From Haloprofundus salinisoli (lineage in GTDB: Archaea; Halobacteriota; Halobacteria; Halobacteriales; Haloferacaceae): a stretch of 64,000 nucleotides of DNA. Both the position numbers and the translations under genes were made by a program. The notes beneath the pieces were generated by a model. That model saw only the letters and a program-made list of their open reading frames with translations, did no database searches and was not told where the DNA came from. Each line of letters opens with the position of its first letter. Within the stretch, counting starts at the first letter, position 1. The DNA is taken from assembly GCF_020097815.1 (NCBI RefSeq), contig NZ_CP083664.1:248001-312000 (forward strand). The letters run 5' to 3'. Below are positions 24,441 through 59,180 of this stretch, piece by piece.

Positions 24441-25088
24441 ATGGGGAACAGAACGGAAGGGACAGATGAGTGGTCGAATCCACGTCGATCACCGCAGCAG
24501 TGCAAGGTCGGGCGGGTCATCGAAGCGTACAATCTCGACGGCTTGGGCGAGATGCTCGAGGTCCGTTGGACCGCCGACGGAGATGGCCGGTCGAGTCTCC
24601 GCGAACTCGCGACCGAATTCAACCACCGACTGCTCGAATCGGCGCTCGAGTCGGCGGGGGTCAGCCTTCTGGACGGCGAAGTCGAGAACTACTACCGGCT
24701 CTTGACTGACGACGCTGTGACCAGTGGGACGAGAGTACAAGCCGAACGGACCCTCGAACGGCACGGTATCGACGTTGACACCATCAGAAACGATTTTGTC
24801 TCTCACCAAGCGGTGCACACGTACTTGGTAAAGTACCGAGGCGTCTCCCGCGACGACCCCACCTCCGCGAACCGAACCGAGAAGATCGATACGAACATTG
24901 GTCGTCTCAGAAGTCGAACGCAGACTGTGACAGCGAACTCCCTCGAATCGCTAGTGACCGCTGGCGAACTTGAAGTCGGCGACATCGACGTGCTCGTAGA
25001 TATCAGTGTTCATTGTGACGTTTGCGGAGAGACACTCACTGTCGACCAGTTGCTCGCAGACGGTGGCTGTGGATGTCGCCGCGGGTGA
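24441..25088 (+). CDS. RdfA-like protein with C-terminal zinc ribbon
   Basis: A 215-residue protein that I assign, from memory of conserved segments, to the haloarchaeal rod-determining-factor RdfA family: KVGRVIEAYNLDGLGEMLEVRW, SLRELATEFNHRLLESAL, LLDGEVENYYRLLTDD and FVSHQAVHTYLVKYRG. The C-terminus has CDVCGETLTVDQLLADGGCGC, a likely zinc site. It is a paralogue of the product of 56518-57180. RdfA influences cell-shape transitions in Haloferax, probably as a regulator. The ATG lies about 25-30 bases after a TATA-like ATTTTACC. Unlike the other copy, it has no SMC-related neighbour. Confidence 0.7.
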   Translation: MGNRTEGTDEWSNPRRSPQQCKVGRVIEAYNLDGLGEMLEVRWTADGDGRSSLRELATEFNHRLLESALESAGVSLLDGEVENYYRLLTDDAVTSGTRVQAERTLERHGIDVDTIRNDFVSHQAVHTYLVKYRGVSRDDPTSANRTEKIDTNIGRLRSRTQTVTANSLESLVTAGELEVGDIDVLVDISVHCDVCGETLTVDQLLADGGCGCRRG

Positions 25089-52835: not shown

Positions 52836-53212
52836 CCTGTAAAACACTCAGATTCCAACGTAAAGAGCTTCGCAAAACGGCAACAAGCGGTCGCTGCCCA
52901 GACGGGTGGAGAGACCAGCTCTCAGCGACGAAGCGGCTCACGTGCTCGGGTTCGGCCGACATGGGAGCCGAAAGTGCAGGATACGATACTTTTATGCTAA
53001 CCACCGGGACATATGGAAGCGAATGTCGCGGATAGCACTCGTTCGAGCGAGGAGTGCGGTCTTCGCTCGAACCCGTATCGGCGATATCCTCACGTTCGGG
53101 ACTGGGTCAACGTCGGGGATTACACTCGGCTGAACCGACCCGGCAGTGTGCGGCGACCACGGTAGACCGCGGTACCCGCTGCCGTGAAAAACTACGACAA
53201 CGACACAGAACT
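52836..53212. promoter_or_regulatory. Divergent promoter region with a stem-loop
   Basis: About 380 bases between two divergent catabolic genes. A TATA-like ACTTTTATG lies at 52988-52996, which would give the plus-strand galactonate dehydratase-like gene a long leader of nearly 190 bases. Within that leader, GTTCGAGCGA (53041-53050) pairs perfectly with 53063-53072 around a 12-base loop. The region is otherwise GC-rich with no gene. Confidence 0.45.
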
Positions 53213-54367
53213 ATGACGAAGATAATCGACTACGACCTGTACGAAGTACCGCCACGATGGCTCTTCCTGCGTATCGAGACGAGCGACGGAACGGTCGGCT
53301 GGGGCGAACCAGTCGTCGAAGGTCGCGCGAAGACGGTCGAGAGGGCCGTCGAAGAACTGATGGACAACTACCTCCTCGGCGAGGACCCTCACTCTATCGA
53401 GGATCACTGGCAGCGGATGTACCGCGGCGGCTTCTACCGCGGCGGCCCGATTCTGATGAGCGCTATCGCGGGTATCGACCAAGCGCTGTGGGACATCAAG
53501 GGCAAACACTTCGGCGCCCCTATCTACGAACTGCTCGGCGGCCGAGCGCGAAATCGTGTACGCGTGTATCAGTGGATCGGCGGCGACAGACCCTCGGAAG
53601 TCGGCGACGCCGCCGCGGAGAAAGTCTCAGAAGGGTTCACGGCACTGAAGATGAACGCCACCTCCGAGATGCGTCGAGTTGACAACCCTGCGTCGGTCGA
53701 CTCCGCGGTCGACAGACTTCGAGAGGTCCGCGAACGCGTCGGACCGGAGACCGACATCGGCGTCGACTTCCACGGGCGCGTTTCGAAGCCGATGGCGAAA
53801 CGCCTCGCCGCCGCGTTGGAACCGTTCGAGCCGATGTTCATCGAGGAACCAGTGCTGCCCGAACACAACGATGCACTTCCCGAAATCGCGGCACACACCA
53901 CTATTCCCATTGCCACGGGTGAACGGATGTTCTCACGGTGGGATTTCAAGGAGATATTCGAATCGCAAGCGGTCGACGTCATCCAACCGGACCTCTCGCA
54001 CGCCGGCGGTATCACTGAAGTGAAGAAAATCGCCGCGATGGCCGAAGCCTACGACGTCGCCGTCGCACCGCACTGTCCCCTCGGACCCATCGCGCTCGCG
54101 TCCTGCATCCACGTTGACGCCTGCTCGCCGAACGCGCTTATCCAAGAACAGAGTCTCAACATCCACTACAACGAGACGAGCGATGTACTCGACTACCTCC
54201 AGAACCCGGACGTGTTCCACTACGACGATGGCTACGTCGACATCCCTGACTCACCGGGGCTCGGTATCGAAATCAACGAGGAGTACGTCGAACAGCAGGC
54301 CGAACAAACCGTCGATTGGCACAACCCTGTGTGGCGTAATGACGACGGGAGCGTCGCCGAATGGTGA
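53213..54367 (+). CDS. dgoD: Galactonate dehydratase-like enolase-superfamily enzyme
   Basis: A 384-residue enolase-superfamily sugar-acid dehydratase. FLRIETSDGTVGWGEPVVEGRAKTVE, FYRGGPILMSAIAGIDQALWDIKGK and YELLGGRARNRVRVYQWIGGDRP match DgoD-type capping and barrel segments. Metal ligands are DIGVDFHGR, MFIEEPVLPEHN and ATGERMFSRWDF, and the catalytic histidine is in VAPHCPLGPIALASCIHVD. It would convert galactonate to 2-keto-3-deoxygalactonate. Start chosen at the ATG from which family similarity begins. Overlaps the SDR gene by seven bases. Confidence 0.85.
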   Translation: MTKIIDYDLYEVPPRWLFLRIETSDGTVGWGEPVVEGRAKTVERAVEELMDNYLLGEDPHSIEDHWQRMYRGGFYRGGPILMSAIAGIDQALWDIKGKHFGAPIYELLGGRARNRVRVYQWIGGDRPSEVGDAAAEKVSEGFTALKMNATSEMRRVDNPASVDSAVDRLREVRERVGPETDIGVDFHGRVSKPMAKRLAAALEPFEPMFIEEPVLPEHNDALPEIAAHTTIPIATGERMFSRWDFKEIFESQAVDVIQPDLSHAGGITEVKKIAAMAEAYDVAVAPHCPLGPIALASCIHVDACSPNALIQEQSLNIHYNETSDVLDYLQNPDVFHYDDGYVDIPDSPGLGIEINEEYVEQQAEQTVDWHNPVWRNDDGSVAEW

Positions 54368-55203
54368 ATCTCCCGGACGGCGGCGATAACGGCAGCGTCG
54401 GGCTGGCGTCGAGAGACGGCCGCCTCAGCGACCGGGTCGCGATTGTCACCGGGTCGACGCGCGGGATCGGCGCAGGAATCTGTCGCCGTTTTGCGGCCGA
54501 GGGCGCAGCGGTCGTAGTCTCTGGTCGCAGTGAAGCGGCGGGCGAGGCTGTCGCCCGAGAGATACACAACGCACCGACAACGGGCGACGCGACGTTTATC
54601 CAGTGCGACATGCGCGACCCAGAAGCCATCGAATCACTCGTCGAGGGCACCGTCGACGAGTTCGGGTGTGTCGATGTCCTCGTCAACAACGCGGGCGTTC
54701 AAACCGAGACGAGCGTCGAGGAGGCGACACTCGACGACTGGTCGTTCGTTCTCGAGACCGACTTCCGCGCGTACTGGTTAGCTGCCAAGCACGCCATCGA
54801 CCACATGCCTGCGGGCGGGAGTATCGTCAACATCTCGTCGAATCACGCGTTCGTCACGATGCCAGAACACTTCCCGTACAATGCCGTGAAGGCCGGAATC
54901 AACGGCATGACGCGGGCGATGGCGCTGGAACTCGGACCGCTCGGTATCCGCGCGAATACGATCAACCCGGGCTGGATAGAGGTCGAACGGACGAGAGAGG
55001 AACTCGAAGGCGGTCGGTACGAGGCGGTCGAGGAACTGCATCCGCTCGACCGAATCGGGCAACCTGGCGACGTCGCGGGCGTGGCGACGTTTCTGGCCAG
55101 CGACGACGCGGCGTTCGTCACGGGCGAGAGTCTCCTCGTCGACGGAGGCCGGTCTGTTGTGATGGACGACGACGCGTTTAGGTCCTACAAACAGCGTCTG
55201 TAG
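54361..55203 (+). CDS. SDR family sugar dehydrogenase candidate
   Basis: A 280-residue classical short-chain dehydrogenase. VAIVTGSTRGIGAGICRRFA is the cofactor motif, DVLVNNAGVQTET the structural motif, and ISSNHAF-YNAVKAGINGMTRAMALELGPLGIRANTINPG contains Ser, Tyr and Lys of the active site. LLVDGGRSV closes the fold. The N-terminus carries about 20 extra residues. Its overlap with the galactonate dehydratase-like gene and the regulator downstream suggest galactose or a related sugar (or its keto acid) as substrate. Confidence 0.88.
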   Translation: MVNLPDGGDNGSVGLASRDGRLSDRVAIVTGSTRGIGAGICRRFAAEGAAVVVSGRSEAAGEAVAREIHNAPTTGDATFIQCDMRDPEAIESLVEGTVDEFGCVDVLVNNAGVQTETSVEEATLDDWSFVLETDFRAYWLAAKHAIDHMPAGGSIVNISSNHAFVTMPEHFPYNAVKAGINGMTRAMALELGPLGIRANTINPGWIEVERTREELEGGRYEAVEELHPLDRIGQPGDVAGVATFLASDDAAFVTGESLLVDGGRSVVMDDDAFRSYKQRL

Positions 55204-55347: not shown

Positions 55348-55363
55348 CAACCCGTACGGGTTG
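55348..55363. promoter_or_regulatory. 16-bp perfect palindrome upstream of the IclR gene
   Basis: CAACCCGTACGGGTTG, a perfect palindrome ending on the first base of a second inverted repeat. It lies about 45-60 bases before the IclR start codon, around where promoter elements should be, so it may be an operator or part of a transcription end signal of the SDR gene. Confidence 0.55.
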
Positions 55364-55379
55364 TTTCCCAAGGGGAAAC
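55363..55379. promoter_or_regulatory. Candidate IclR operator 1
   Basis: GTTTCCC-AAG-GGGAAAC, perfect 7-bp arms with 3-base spacer, 30 bases before the IclR ATG. A similar repeat flanks the gene on the other side (56368-56384) and a half-site GGGAAAC occurs near 55268-55274. Autoregulation by the encoded IclR protein is the simplest reading; no binding data are visible in sequence. Confidence 0.6.
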
Positions 55380-55408
55380 GCTATGTCACCTCCCCGTCTG
55401 GACCCCGT

Positions 55409-56173
55409 ATGAGCAGAGACGAACGCTATCCGGTCGGATCGGTTCGGACGACGTTCAGAATCATCGAAGCGCTCGAAGAACGGAGTAGCGCGGGCGTCAC
55501 CGAACTCGCAGACGAGATCGGGCTCTCAAAAAGTTCGGTCCACAAGCATCTGACGACACTCGAATCGCTCGACTACATCGTCAAAGACGAGGGAACGTAC
55601 CGCCTCGGCTTCCGATTCCTCGGAATAGGAAACCGCGTTAAAAACCGCTCGGAACTTGTCTCAATAGCTAAACCGGCGATAGAGAATCTGTCGCAGACCG
55701 CCGGTTCAGTGGCGAACCTAATGGTCGCAGAACACGGCTACGGCGTTTACACGCACCGGGCGGGAGAACAGTTCGAGACATCCAGCTATCTGCCACCCGT
55801 CGGTGGCCGGGTCTATCTCCATGCGACTGCCGGCGGGAAAGCGATTCTCTCACAGCTCTCAGACCAGGAGGTCCAGGCGGTCCTCGACCGACGCGGACTC
55901 CCTTCGCTGACGGAGAAGACCATCACCGACGAGCAGGCGCTTCGCCGAGAGCTTCGGTCGGTCCGCGATCGGGGACTCGCCTTCGAGCGGGGCGAACATC
56001 TCCCGTCAGTTCAGTGTGTCTCTGCCCCCGTGACTGCATCCGGCCGGCCCGTCGGGGCGATCAGCGTCTCGGGGAGTATCGACCAGATGAGCGGCAAGAA
56101 ACTCGAAGAGGACCTCGCAGGACTGGTCGTGAGCACGGGCAACGCTATCGAGGTCACGCTCCTACAACAGTAG
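55409..56173 (+). CDS. IclR family transcriptional regulator
   Basis: A 254-residue regulator. The N-terminal winged helix is VRTTFRIIEALEERSSAGVTELADEIGLSKSSVHKHLTTLESLDYIVKDEGTYRLGFRFL, and the C-terminal effector domain has LPPVGGRVYLHATAGGKAIL and LPSVQCVSAPVTASGRPVGAISVSGS. Haloarchaeal IclR proteins control pentose and other sugar pathways in response to pathway acids. Location directly after the dgoD-like/SDR pair makes these, and possibly the divergent transporter operon, likely targets. Start chosen at the ATG from which the winged-helix similarity begins. Confidence 0.93.
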   Translation: MSRDERYPVGSVRTTFRIIEALEERSSAGVTELADEIGLSKSSVHKHLTTLESLDYIVKDEGTYRLGFRFLGIGNRVKNRSELVSIAKPAIENLSQTAGSVANLMVAEHGYGVYTHRAGEQFETSSYLPPVGGRVYLHATAGGKAILSQLSDQEVQAVLDRRGLPSLTEKTITDEQALRRELRSVRDRGLAFERGEHLPSVQCVSAPVTASGRPVGAISVSGSIDQMSGKKLEEDLAGLVVSTGNAIEVTLLQQ

Positions 56174-56517: not shown

Positions 56518-57180
56518 ATGGACTCCGAAAAGACGGGCGACAACCCCAAGCGGCCGAACAGTAAGGTCGCCCGCGTTATCGAGGCGTACGACCTCGGACC
56601 CGAGTTCGGCGACCGGCTCGAACGACTCTGGACGGGCGAGGCCGAAGAACGGCGCAGTCTCCGGGACTTGGCGGACTACTTCAACCGTCACGTGCTTGAA
56701 TCGGCCGTATCAGACACCGGCACGTCCATGCTCGACGGGGAAGTCGAAAACGTGTATCGGCTACTGACCGACGATGAGGTGAGCAGCGGGATGCGAACGG
56801 AGGCGCGAGTGAGACTCGAACGCGATGGTGTCGACGTCGCCAGACTCGAACGCGATTTCGTCACGCACCAAGCGATACGCTCGTATCTCAAGAAGTACCG
56901 TGGTGCTGAGTACGAACGAGCGAGCGAGGCCGATAGGATGAAAAACACGACGGAGAGCATCCAGCGCCTCCGATCGCGCACCGCGACGGTGACCGAAGGG
57001 AATCTCGACCAGTTGCGGACGAACGACCACATCACGCTCGGAGAGTTCCGCCTGTTCGTCGAGATGAACGTCCTCTGCGAGGAGTGCGGCGCACAGTACA
57101 GTGTCGACGAACTGCTCGAACGTGGCGGCTGCGACTGCCAACGGGACACGGACGTACAGAGCACCGACGGTTCGAGTTGA
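56518..57180 (+). CDS. RdfA-like protein with C-terminal zinc ribbon
   Basis: A 220-residue paralogue of the protein encoded at 24441-25088, assigned to the rod-determining factor RdfA family from memory. Shared segments are KVARVIEAYDLGPEFGDRLERLW, SLRDLADYFNRHVLESAV, LDGEVENVYRLLTDDEVSSGMR and FVTHQAIRSYLKKYRGAEY. CEECGAQYSVDELLERGGCDC is the zinc site. It is convergent with the SMC-related gene, 59 bases apart, a pairing that suggests joint function. A strong palindrome upstream indicates specific regulation. Confidence 0.72.
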   Translation: MDSEKTGDNPKRPNSKVARVIEAYDLGPEFGDRLERLWTGEAEERRSLRDLADYFNRHVLESAVSDTGTSMLDGEVENVYRLLTDDEVSSGMRTEARVRLERDGVDVARLERDFVTHQAIRSYLKKYRGAEYERASEADRMKNTTESIQRLRSRTATVTEGNLDQLRTNDHITLGEFRLFVEMNVLCEECGAQYSVDELLERGGCDCQRDTDVQSTDGSS

Positions 57181-57239
57181 GGTGAGTTCGTCCCGAGCAA
57201 CCGTAGACGAGAAGTGAGAACGAACGGTGATAGTGTCGG

Positions 57240-59180
57240 TTATATCTCGGAGACGCGAGCGTCCTCGTTCTCGATTGCCTGCGCGTCTTCGGGAAGGAGC
57301 GCGACGACGAGGAACTCGGCGTAGTCGGAGAGATAATCGACGAGGCGAGCGATTCTGTCGGAGTCGATAGCCTCCAGCGAGTCGAGGAGCATGAACGGCA
57401 CCGTCTCGTAGAGGTCGTGGACGAGGTAGCCCGCGAGCGCGAAGACGAGTCCCGTGACCTCCTGTTCGGACTCGCTGAGGTGGTCGACGGTGTCCTCGTA
57501 GGTCGTCCCCGACTCGGTGCTGCGGACGATGTGTAGCTCGAACGTCGCCTTGTCGACTTTGCGTCGGCCCTCGCGGACGCGACGCTCGACTCGCTCAATC
57601 CAGATCCGCTCGATGTTTGCGTACTCCAAAATCCCGAGCACGGCGTCCATGTGCTCGTTGAACTCCGAGATCGCCTGTGTCTCGATCTGCTCGATCCGGG
57701 TCCGGAGGTCGGTGAGTTCCTCGGCGACGCGTTCGCGTTCGTCGGACAGTCGACTCTCCTCCGCGAGTTCGTCTTCGATCTCCGTGATCTCCGACTCAAC
57801 CGACTCCAGCGAGGATTCCAGTCGACCGAGTTCGAATTCGAGTTCGTTTGCCTGCTTGTGGAGTTCGAGGACGTCGCTGAAGTCCTCCGATTCCAGATCG
57901 TCGACCGTCTCTTCGAGCGCCGCCACCTCCTCGCCCAGCCGGTCGCGTTCGCCTCGCTTGTCCGAGAGCGTCTCCTCCCGGCGGTCGAGTTCGTCTTCGA
58001 CCCGCCGGAGCTTCCCTCGAAGCGACTCCACCCGTTGTCGTCGTTTCTCGCGCTCTTTCTTCTGGGTTCGGAGCTCACTGAGATCGTCGTCGATGTCACG
58101 GACCGCGGTGAGTTTCTCCTTCCGAAGCGTGCGCAGCTGTTCGAGCGTCCCCTCGATGTTCTCTCTGTCGACGGTCGACCCGCACGTCCAACAGGTGACA
58201 GCGTCGTCGTCGACGAGCTTGTCGGTGACCGCTTTCGAGTCGTCTTCCGTCGACAGCGTCGCGGTGACGGCACCGTCTTCGAGCATCTCCTCGTTGAACT
58301 TCAGTACGTTCTGGAGTTCGCTGACTTCGCTGCTGAGGCGCTGTTTGCGCTCGCGCAGTTGCCCGATTCGTCGGTCGACCTCATCTTCGGGGTCGTCGGC
58401 CTCGTCGGCGAGTTCTTCGAGTTCGGTTTCGAGCTCGCGCCGTTCGCGCGTCAAGGATTCGATGCTCTCCTGTTCGAGGTCGATGTCGGACCGGACCGAC
58501 TCGAGAGAAGCGCGTCGGTCGCGAAGTTCGTCGAGTTTCTGCTCCAGTTCGCGTTTCTCCTCGCGCGACTCGTCGACATCGGAGCCGTGGTCGTCGATTT
58601 CGGCTTCCTTCTCGGCCAGTTCCTCGCGTTTGGCTTCGAGTTCCTCGCGCAGACGCGTGCGTTCGGTTTCCAGTTCCGGAAGGTCGTGTTTCAGTTCCTG
58701 TAGGTCGTCGATTCGGTCGTCGAGTTGCGACTTCTCGGCTTCGAGTTCCGAGATTTCACGGTGAATCGCGTCGGTGTCGACCGGCCGCATGATGATCTCC
58801 CGAAGGTCGACGTTCTGAGTGACTGCCCGTCGCGCCTCGTTGTTTCCGAGGAGAAACGCGAAGAGGTCGGCGACTTCCGCCTCGTCGAGGAACGGGTCGC
58901 CGCTCGTACTTACTCCGCCGCCGGTTCGCGTCAGCGTTCGAGTGTACCGGTTGTCGCCGAGTTCGAGTTCGACGTGGCCCTCGTCAGCATCGCCTTTGAG
59001 CGAAACTCGCTCGCTTCCCATCGTGGCCATAATCGCCTGCAGAAACGAGGTTCGGTTCGTCGCGTTTCGTCCTGCGAGAACCGTGACCCCGGGCGGAAGT
59101 TCGACGGCCGTTTCGTCGATTCCGCCGACGTTTCTCACCACAAATCGGGCGGGGTTTTCCTTAGCAACAGTCGATGACAT
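57240..59180 (-). CDS. Archaea-specific SMC-related protein with degenerate P-loop
   Basis: A 646-residue SMC/Rad50-like protein. The N-terminal head carries GRNATNRTS (residues 37-45) where a normal P-loop has GxNGxGKS, so the catalytic lysine is an arginine and two glycines are lost. Long coiled coils run from about 137 to 300 and 340 to 510, meeting at a CxxC zinc-hook-like CWTC (330-333). The C-terminal head has the signature LSESEQ (568-573) and FMLLDSLEAID (596-606), with Ser in place of the Walker B glutamate. It probably binds but may not hydrolyse ATP. Similar haloarchaeal proteins I recall carry the same P-loop, suggesting family-wide change rather than decay. Confidence 0.85.
   Translation of the reverse strand: MSSTVAKENPARFVVRNVGGIDETAVELPPGVTVLAGRNATNRTSFLQAIMATMGSERVSLKGDADEGHVELELGDNRYTRTLTRTGGGVSTSGDPFLDEAEVADLFAFLLGNNEARRAVTQNVDLREIIMRPVDTDAIHREISELEAEKSQLDDRIDDLQELKHDLPELETERTRLREELEAKREELAEKEAEIDDHGSDVDESREEKRELEQKLDELRDRRASLESVRSDIDLEQESIESLTRERRELETELEELADEADDPEDEVDRRIGQLRERKQRLSSEVSELQNVLKFNEEMLEDGAVTATLSTEDDSKAVTDKLVDDDAVTCWTCGSTVDRENIEGTLEQLRTLRKEKLTAVRDIDDDLSELRTQKKEREKRRQRVESLRGKLRRVEDELDRREETLSDKRGERDRLGEEVAALEETVDDLESEDFSDVLELHKQANELEFELGRLESSLESVESEITEIEDELAEESRLSDERERVAEELTDLRTRIEQIETQAISEFNEHMDAVLGILEYANIERIWIERVERRVREGRRKVDKATFELHIVRSTESGTTYEDTVDHLSESEQEVTGLVFALAGYLVHDLYETVPFMLLDSLEAIDSDRIARLVDYLSDYAEFLVVALLPEDAQAIENEDARVSEI

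Follow-up and report, generated by a model that had tools for sequence, protein, structure and literature searches.

A conserved SMC-like protein with altered ATPase motifs and its probable partner RdfA at a Haloprofundus salinisoli locus

What does a protein of the structural maintenance of chromosomes (SMC) type do once the residues that would normally let it hydrolyse ATP have been replaced, and is the replacement peculiar to one gene or the property of a family? The well-known machines of the SMC superfamily are ATPases. The question is raised by a 64,000-nt stretch of Haloprofundus salinisoli DNA (contig NZ_CP083664.1, positions 248,001 to 312,000; hereafter the window), which belongs to a 356-kb contig of a 3.42-Mb genome and in which the gene for an archaea-specific SMC-related protein (ASRP) lies next to the gene for RdfA. 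The two genes are convergent, tail to tail, with their stop codons 59 nt apart. An earlier prediction made from the DNA letters (the original prediction) had placed an RdfA-like and an SMC-related protein here, and profile searches bear it out on both counts. The features on which the argument turns are as follows, in window coordinates.

56518..57180, forward strand: RdfA, putative dedicated partner of ASRP, 220 amino acids (Pfam PF21811, E 3.6e-78, 262 bits across the full length of the family model, with a gathering cut-off of 27; co-occurrence; mirror test)
57076..57138, forward strand: C-terminal zinc-ribbon cysteines of RdfA, C187, C190, C205 and C207 (nearly invariant in 53 RdfAs)
57240..59180, reverse strand: ASRP, Sph2-4 type, 646 amino acids (NCBIfam NF045487, the ASRP model, 684 bits, far above the cut-off of 300; AlphaFold2 model resembling Rad50/SMC heads)
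59046..59072, reverse strand: altered Walker A motif GRNATNRTS, residues 37-45, with Arg43 for Lys and Asn42 for Gly (translation)
58182..58193, reverse strand: zinc hook CWTC, residues 330-333 (both Cys in 132/132 sequences)
57465..57479, reverse strand: signature LSESE, residues 568-572 (Glu572 in 132/132)
57363..57398, reverse strand: Walker B and D-loop PFMLLDSLEAID, residues 595-606, with Ser601 for Glu (alignment)

We put the probability at roughly 0.5 that a hydrolysis-deficient, Rad50/SMC-like ASRP dimer and RdfA together act as a structural complex, a reading drawn from sequences and predicted structures.

Altered ATPase motifs across the ASRP family

Profile and model agree in presenting the window ASRP as a Rad50/SMC-like protein, with a predicted ATP-binding cassette (ABC)-type head, an antiparallel coiled coil and a zinc hook. 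In the AlphaFold2 model (mean predicted local distance difference test score, pLDDT, 82.8; underlying alignment of 50 of 81 sequences, namely the window protein and 80 loci) a Rad50/SMC-like head, split between Walker A (37-45) and Walker B (595-606), flanks a long antiparallel coiled coil of helices 137-309 and 339-518, with the hook between them. The best Foldseek matches of this model are Rad50, MukB and Smc5/6, and a VIA comparison with Rad50 (3qku) gives Z 20.1 with a root-mean-square deviation of 4.4 over 301 aligned residues, a score that SMC heads tie; a sequence search for solved structures related to ASRP returned nothing useful. Head fold, coiled coil and CxxC hook are thus shared with Rad50. 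The window ASRP differs from Rad50, however, in lacking both the Walker A lysine and the Walker B glutamate, and Rad50 profile models give it 35-50 bits, far under their cut-offs of 700 and more.

Structures of LmuB, from Lamassu, are also among the fold matches, and the LmuB profile, which has no stated cut-off, gives the window ASRP 58 bits. Could the pair then be a Lamassu-type defence module? The ASRP profile score is 684 bits, RdfA has no PADLOC match, the neighbours examined are catabolic genes, an IclR gene and RdfA, and the published phenotypes concern cell shape; we regard this explanation as very remote and rejected a defence role as weakly supported. A virus origin was likewise rejected, with no PHROGs match for RdfA and no match in a phage collection.

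The Walker A lysine and the catalytic Walker B glutamate are the residues by which an active SMC or Rad50 ATPase is recognised, and at these positions the window protein has Arg43 and Ser601, the latter in FMLLDSLEAID directly after Asp600. Both substitutions are as the original prediction had described them, and so is the CxxC of the zinc hook. The other residues of the nucleotide pocket are mostly kept: Asn39, Thr44, Asp600, Ser569 and Glu572 of the signature, and Asp606.

The family alignment that the original prediction had proposed confirms that these changes are widespread. Among 132 haloarchaeal loci (two repeat loci, L044 and L047, excluded), position 43 is Arg in 114 and Lys in 18, and position 42 is Asn in 116; Asp600, Glu572 and both hook cysteines are present in all 132, and Glu601 in a single sequence. 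Adding the second set of 80 loci and removing five near-duplicates (217 to 212) leaves, besides five rows with an outgroup label, 207 distinct haloarchaeal ASRPs, for which locus sampling took 100 of the further ASRP matches of our genome survey rather than all. (Two of the outgroup-labelled rows, L230 and L231, are haloarchaeal Sph1-type sequences and are counted neither among the 207 nor among the eight non-haloarchaeal proteins below.) In this larger set 186 proteins have Arg43 and 21 have Lys43, while 206 lack the Walker B glutamate. A motif change peculiar to the window gene, or a sequencing error, is ruled out by these two alignments.

Is the altered site simply decaying? The 186 Arg-type sequences, in which Arg43 is invariant by definition, have a mean identity of 50%, and yet Ser601, Glu603, Asp600, Asp606 and Glu572 are invariant among them; of the 643 columns none has a lower entropy than that of Ser601, which shares the minimum. 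Because the altered residues are invariant at this level of divergence, the alignment shows a site evidently kept in a changed form, under strong purifying selection, and not one in decay. This bears on the explanation that the motifs reflect plain decay and that only the coiled coil is needed, as in an intermediate-filament-like cytoskeletal element to which nucleotide would be irrelevant. Haloferax is reported to form rods when Halobacterium Sph1 is overproduced, and the protein has been proposed to act as a filament (PMC10869688); decay, however, would have let the residues drift, when they are in fact among the most conserved, and we consider this explanation quite improbable.

Haloarchaeal ASRPs form two clades, an Sph1 type, in which the lysine is kept and the glutamate has mostly become Gly, and an Sph2-4 type. 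The window ASRP belongs to the latter and shares profile, size, zinc hook and rdfA pairing with other members, including Sph3 of H. volcanii, from which it differs by locus only, as a further paralogue and in nothing of kind. Its two nearest relatives (92% and 83% identity) are on Haloprofundus plasmids, are annotated as ASRP and have the same gene order. Sph1 of Halobacterium salinarum has the same family assignment and hook as the window protein, and likewise adjoins rdfA and an IclR gene; it differs in keeping the Walker A lysine (SNFQGKSS), in having Gly for the Walker B glutamate (LLDG) and in belonging to the separate clade. The other ASRP-RdfA pair of the window's own genome (C2:337073-339630; L035, L047) has a lysine in Walker A (GSNASNKSS), VVDA as Walker B and a same-strand gene order.

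In eight ASRPs from the same phylum but outside Halobacteria, the Walker A lysine is present in all (PNASGKTS and similar), and the residue after the Walker B aspartate is Glu in five and Asp in three, these three being closely related. Since non-haloarchaeal relatives keep the lysine and mostly the glutamate, the replacement in haloarchaea is, on phylogenetic grounds, derived: the catalytic glutamate appears to be gone from both haloarchaeal clades, and the change from Gly-Lys to Asn-Arg to belong to the Sph2-4 clade. The original prediction had named relatives with a normal P-loop as the finding that would tell against it. Such relatives do exist, both outside Halobacteria and as the 21 haloarchaeal Lys43-bearers; 20 of those 21, however, still lack the catalytic glutamate, and the idea of lost hydrolysis therefore survives and widens to the family. 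The prediction had also held that the signature motif remains, which is correct in part only: the window sequence is LSESEQ rather than LSGGE/Q, and because intact-motif ASRPs outside Halobacteria have LSTSE and LSKSE, LSxSE is a form proper to the family.

Positions 43 and 601 may also depend on each other. All 186 proteins with Arg43 have Ser601, whereas those with Lys43 in the Sph2-4 clade have Ala (nine) or Ser (one) at 601; on the tree the switch between lysine and arginine occurs three times, position 601 going along. Three independent pairs are too few for significance, and we regard this co-variation as suggestive.

RdfA as the partner of ASRP

The window RdfA is a plain member of PF21811. 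Its confident model (pLDDT 91.1; alignment of 53 of 64 sequences) starts with helices and ends in a small part resembling a zinc ribbon. Considered as a possible kleisin, RdfA has no Foldseek match in the PDB at E 0.001; VIA gives at best Z 4.5 for a common helical arrangement with no clear fold, and a sequence search for related solved structures yielded nothing useful.

If RdfA does serve ASRP, the two should be found together, and the survey that the original prediction had called for finds them so. Among 116 Halobacteria genomes, 97 have both, 17 neither, two RdfA only and none ASRP only (Fisher 1.7e-18). The two genomes with RdfA and no ASRP over the cut-off (G071 and G110) have weaker RdfA matches, with E-values of 1.9e-37 and 2.8e-42. 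Of the 54 RdfA genes that 24 genomes contain, 42 have been reported to adjoin an SMC-like gene (PMC10869688); in our data RdfA is in the retrieved stretch at 114 of 132 loci and at 63 of 80 in the second set. The 114 comprise 71 pairs with RdfA before ASRP on the same strand, 17 with RdfA after it on the same strand, 19 convergent pairs, which is the orientation of the window pair, and seven divergent ones.

Shared species history could by itself make two trees similar. To separate this from a match between partners we made use of paralogues, 29 of the 78 genomes analysed having several pairs. Across 112 pairs (L117 and L126 had been left out beforehand for weak RdfA matches, other weak ones, L129-L131 and L135, being kept) RdfA and ASRP distances correlate with r 0.891. 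When partners are swapped among paralogues within genomes the mean falls to 0.527 with a maximum of 0.83, and none of 2000 swaps reaches the real value. Because swapped partners never do so, the match of the two trees exceeds what shared species history gives. By segment, the correlation with RdfA is 0.80 for the coiled coil of ASRP, 0.69-0.71 for the heads and 0.60 for the hook; coil columns probably vary most, and we draw no conclusion from this ranking.

A search with the RdfA model of four methanogen-side genomes, from the order with the nearest outgroup ASRPs, gave one match in each (E 3e-11 to 1e-4), in every case directly adjoining the ASRP gene on the same strand; the same genome-wide search of five other outgroup genomes gave none. 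These homologues are much more divergent (22-45 bits), with CxxC at the zinc-ribbon position kept in three of the four. Profile-profile comparison nevertheless aligns them with haloarchaeal RdfA over 192 columns, among them the zinc-ribbon cysteines, at a probability of 97.4% and E 1.2e-11. Of 119 genomes of this order, exactly these four have RdfA relatives, and the ASRPs beside them have intact motifs. That the pairing is a haloarchaeal invention is thereby ruled out. Co-occurrence, adjacency, matched trees and a pairing older than Halobacteria together show RdfA, at the level of genes and genomes, to be the dedicated partner of ASRP, to which it would be physically bound as second subunit.

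At all four methanogen-side loci (L228, L234, L235, L236) a third gene, of about 170-200 codons, is found near the RdfA and ASRP genes on the same strand, and its product has winged-helix matches, with weak E-values, in both its N-terminal and its C-terminal half. The gene set recalls SMC-kleisin-KITE complexes in having an SMC-type head, a dedicated small partner and, at these four loci, a winged-helix protein; the likeness is one of gene make-up only, RdfA lacking a fold match to solved proteins.

Three more distant ASRP-like genes are all preceded by a gene for a conserved protein of about 210-240 amino acids, a putative partner of another kind (L238 3111-3779, reverse; L239 760-1488, forward; L240 66-692, forward), for which a Pfam scan of the L238 copy gave no match. 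As an RdfA relative it was dismissed (hhalign probability 0.1%). A second complete RdfA gene (Pfam E 3.3e-73) is present in the window itself, at 24441-25088 on the forward strand; it lies 32 kb away from the pair and has no adjoining ASRP. The genome has four RdfA genes against two for ASRP.

IclR regulators and catabolic islands

Upstream of rdfA the window continues with a catabolic island and its putative regulator.

55361..56173, forward strand: IclR-family regulator next to rdfA, start codon uncertain (IclR_C, E 3e-31)
53054..55203, forward strand: sugar-acid dehydratase (MR_MLE, dgoD-like) and short-chain dehydrogenase/reductase (SDR) gene, both in this catabolic island (Pfam; same order in two Haloprofundus plasmids)

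The dehydratase resembles galactonate dehydratase, and relatives of the island add an alpha-galactosidase.

IclR genes recur beside ASRP-RdfA pairs. In the 80-locus set, one lies within 4 kb at 33 loci and within 500 nt at 22 of these; in the 132-locus set, one lies in the shorter flanks of 40 loci. The cleaner of two tests sets 60 loci against as many matched regions drawn at random from their contigs and finds IclR neighbours at 13 of the former and none of the latter (Fisher 1.2e-4). A permutation within contigs points the same way, with eight of the 64 IclR genes of ten genomes within 2.5 kb of RdfA or ASRP against 0.9 expected (5000 permutations, maximum 7), although these genomes were hand-picked, three of them being syntenic and from the genus to which the window belongs, and some contig sizes were estimated. 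Among Pfam families of nearest neighbours IclR_C is the commonest (14 of 114), and it is not among the 25 commonest listed for 116 control proteins (0 or 1 of 116); behind it come acyl-CoA dehydrogenases, thiolases and 2-hydroxyacid dehydrogenases. In H. salinarum the founding gene, sph1, adjoins rdfA, an IclR gene and arcA.

Is this a single inherited triad? The neighbouring IclR proteins do not form one clade; in the IclR tree they are scattered throughout, with 15 label changes against a shuffled mean of 16.7, and a single IclR-RdfA-ASRP triad was rejected. Because these neighbours come from the whole tree, the association has arisen many times.

Recurrence of this kind might suggest that the pair organises or silences accessory catabolic islands locally, in cis, with RdfA as the subunit that contacts DNA or the regulator and with an effect like that of Sulfolobus coalescin, ClsN, which belongs to the same family (PMC9389158). 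Against this, a pair may adjoin an island without acting on it, and the phenotypes published for paralogues, in shape, swarming and gene conversion, are cell-wide; we find local organisation doubtful.

At eight of the 80 loci a ParA-like ATPase, named from its sequence, lies about 2-3.4 kb upstream of ASRP (for example L180 2270-3319), and many such ASRPs are on plasmids.

A putative structural complex and published phenotypes

The original prediction took the role of the pair to be undescribed, which is not so. Haloferax volcanii without RdfA or Sph3 is reported to be disk-only (PMC10869688); each of four sph deletions impairs gene conversion, sph2 and sph4 could not be deleted together, and sph deletions affect swarming and shape (PMC11276520). 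Its suggestion of a structural role we judge likely, with the amendment that RdfA is better viewed as the dedicated partner of ASRP than as a cell-shape regulator.

How might such a complex work? We envisage an ASRP head whose hold on nucleotide is weak or long-lasting and is not followed by normal hydrolysis, and a protein that dimerises through its hook, so as to form a static or slowly switched scaffold rather than a cycling motor. RdfA would be bound to it as second subunit, and the complex would shape the cell, the nucleoid or both, as the Haloferax paralogue mutants indicate. Because pairs have been duplicated onto plasmids, beside different IclR regulators of catabolic islands, the window copy may be switched according to whether one specific carbon source is in use, in this case probably galactonate or a galactoside.

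A number of observations weigh against this structural reading. Arginine can partly substitute for lysine in some P-loops, and Glu603, invariant in all 186 Arg-type sequences and two residues past position 601, could be a relocated catalytic residue. With Arg43 and Glu603, and the rest of the pocket kept, the head might still be an active ATPase that cycles like Rad50 or SMC and acts in DNA recombination and gene conversion, as the impaired gene conversion of all four H. volcanii deletions (PMC11276520) would suggest. At position 603, however, most Sph1-type sequences have Gly and the nearest outgroup with intact motifs has Thr, and hence Glu603 is no general substitute; residue 601, moreover, co-varies with residue 43 without ever returning to Glu in the Sph2-4 clade. 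We therefore hold an active ATPase to be unlikely. As regards the partnership, RdfA is absent from the retrieved stretch at 17 of 80 and 18 of 132 loci, though every ASRP genome surveyed has it somewhere, and co-evolution can mean joint inheritance of linked genes, physical contact being something that we infer. The proposed control of the pair's expression by IclR rests on gene position, and IclR neighbours are found at none of 11 Sph1-type loci, although H. salinarum sph1 has one.

Tentatively, and with less confidence than in the structural complex itself, one may go further and see an archaeal complex of a separate SMC type, built around ASRP and RdfA and older than Halobacteria. In methanogen-side genomes, where ASRP looks competent as an ATPase, it would include a third subunit, possibly of tandem winged-helix type, in a gene set like that of SMC-kleisin-KITE. 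In haloarchaea the glutamate would have been lost first, and the Asn-Arg phosphate loop would have followed in one clade, giving a scaffold independent of hydrolysis; many copies of it would have arisen, each coming under the control of a different IclR-regulated catabolic island, such that cell or nucleoid architecture became tied to carbon source. A large clade in which non-catalytic residues are strictly conserved, and which is partly essential in genetic terms (sph2 and sph4) and required for the shape of the cell, would offer a natural way to learn what SMC architecture does without hydrolysis. Experiments can be designed directly from the sequence of losses and the outgroup with intact motifs, and the IclR neighbours point to conditions in which the individual paralogues may be expressed.

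How much of this is new? The ASRP family was defined and named in 2022, no common flanking genes having been found (PMC9389158), and in the available parts of that paper we found no mention of a conserved loss of catalytic residues. Neither 'Walker' nor 'IclR' occurs in PMC10869688. The open-licence literature, in which silence is no proof of absence, gave no co-mention of IclR and rod-determining factor, and the matches listed there for Walker A in haloarchaeal SMC-like proteins contained the MinD2 paper only. The outcome is a known pair in a catalytically altered and conserved form, together with two apparently new pieces of context, which we did not find in print: RdfA homologues beside intact-motif methanogen-side ASRPs, and IclR genes beside haloarchaeal pairs.

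Published accounts place sph3 and rdfA in the CsmR regulon (PMC13286277). They conflict on the direction of the Sph3 effect, Sph3 being said to promote the plate form (PMC13286277) and its deletion to abolish rods (PMC10869688, PMC11276520).

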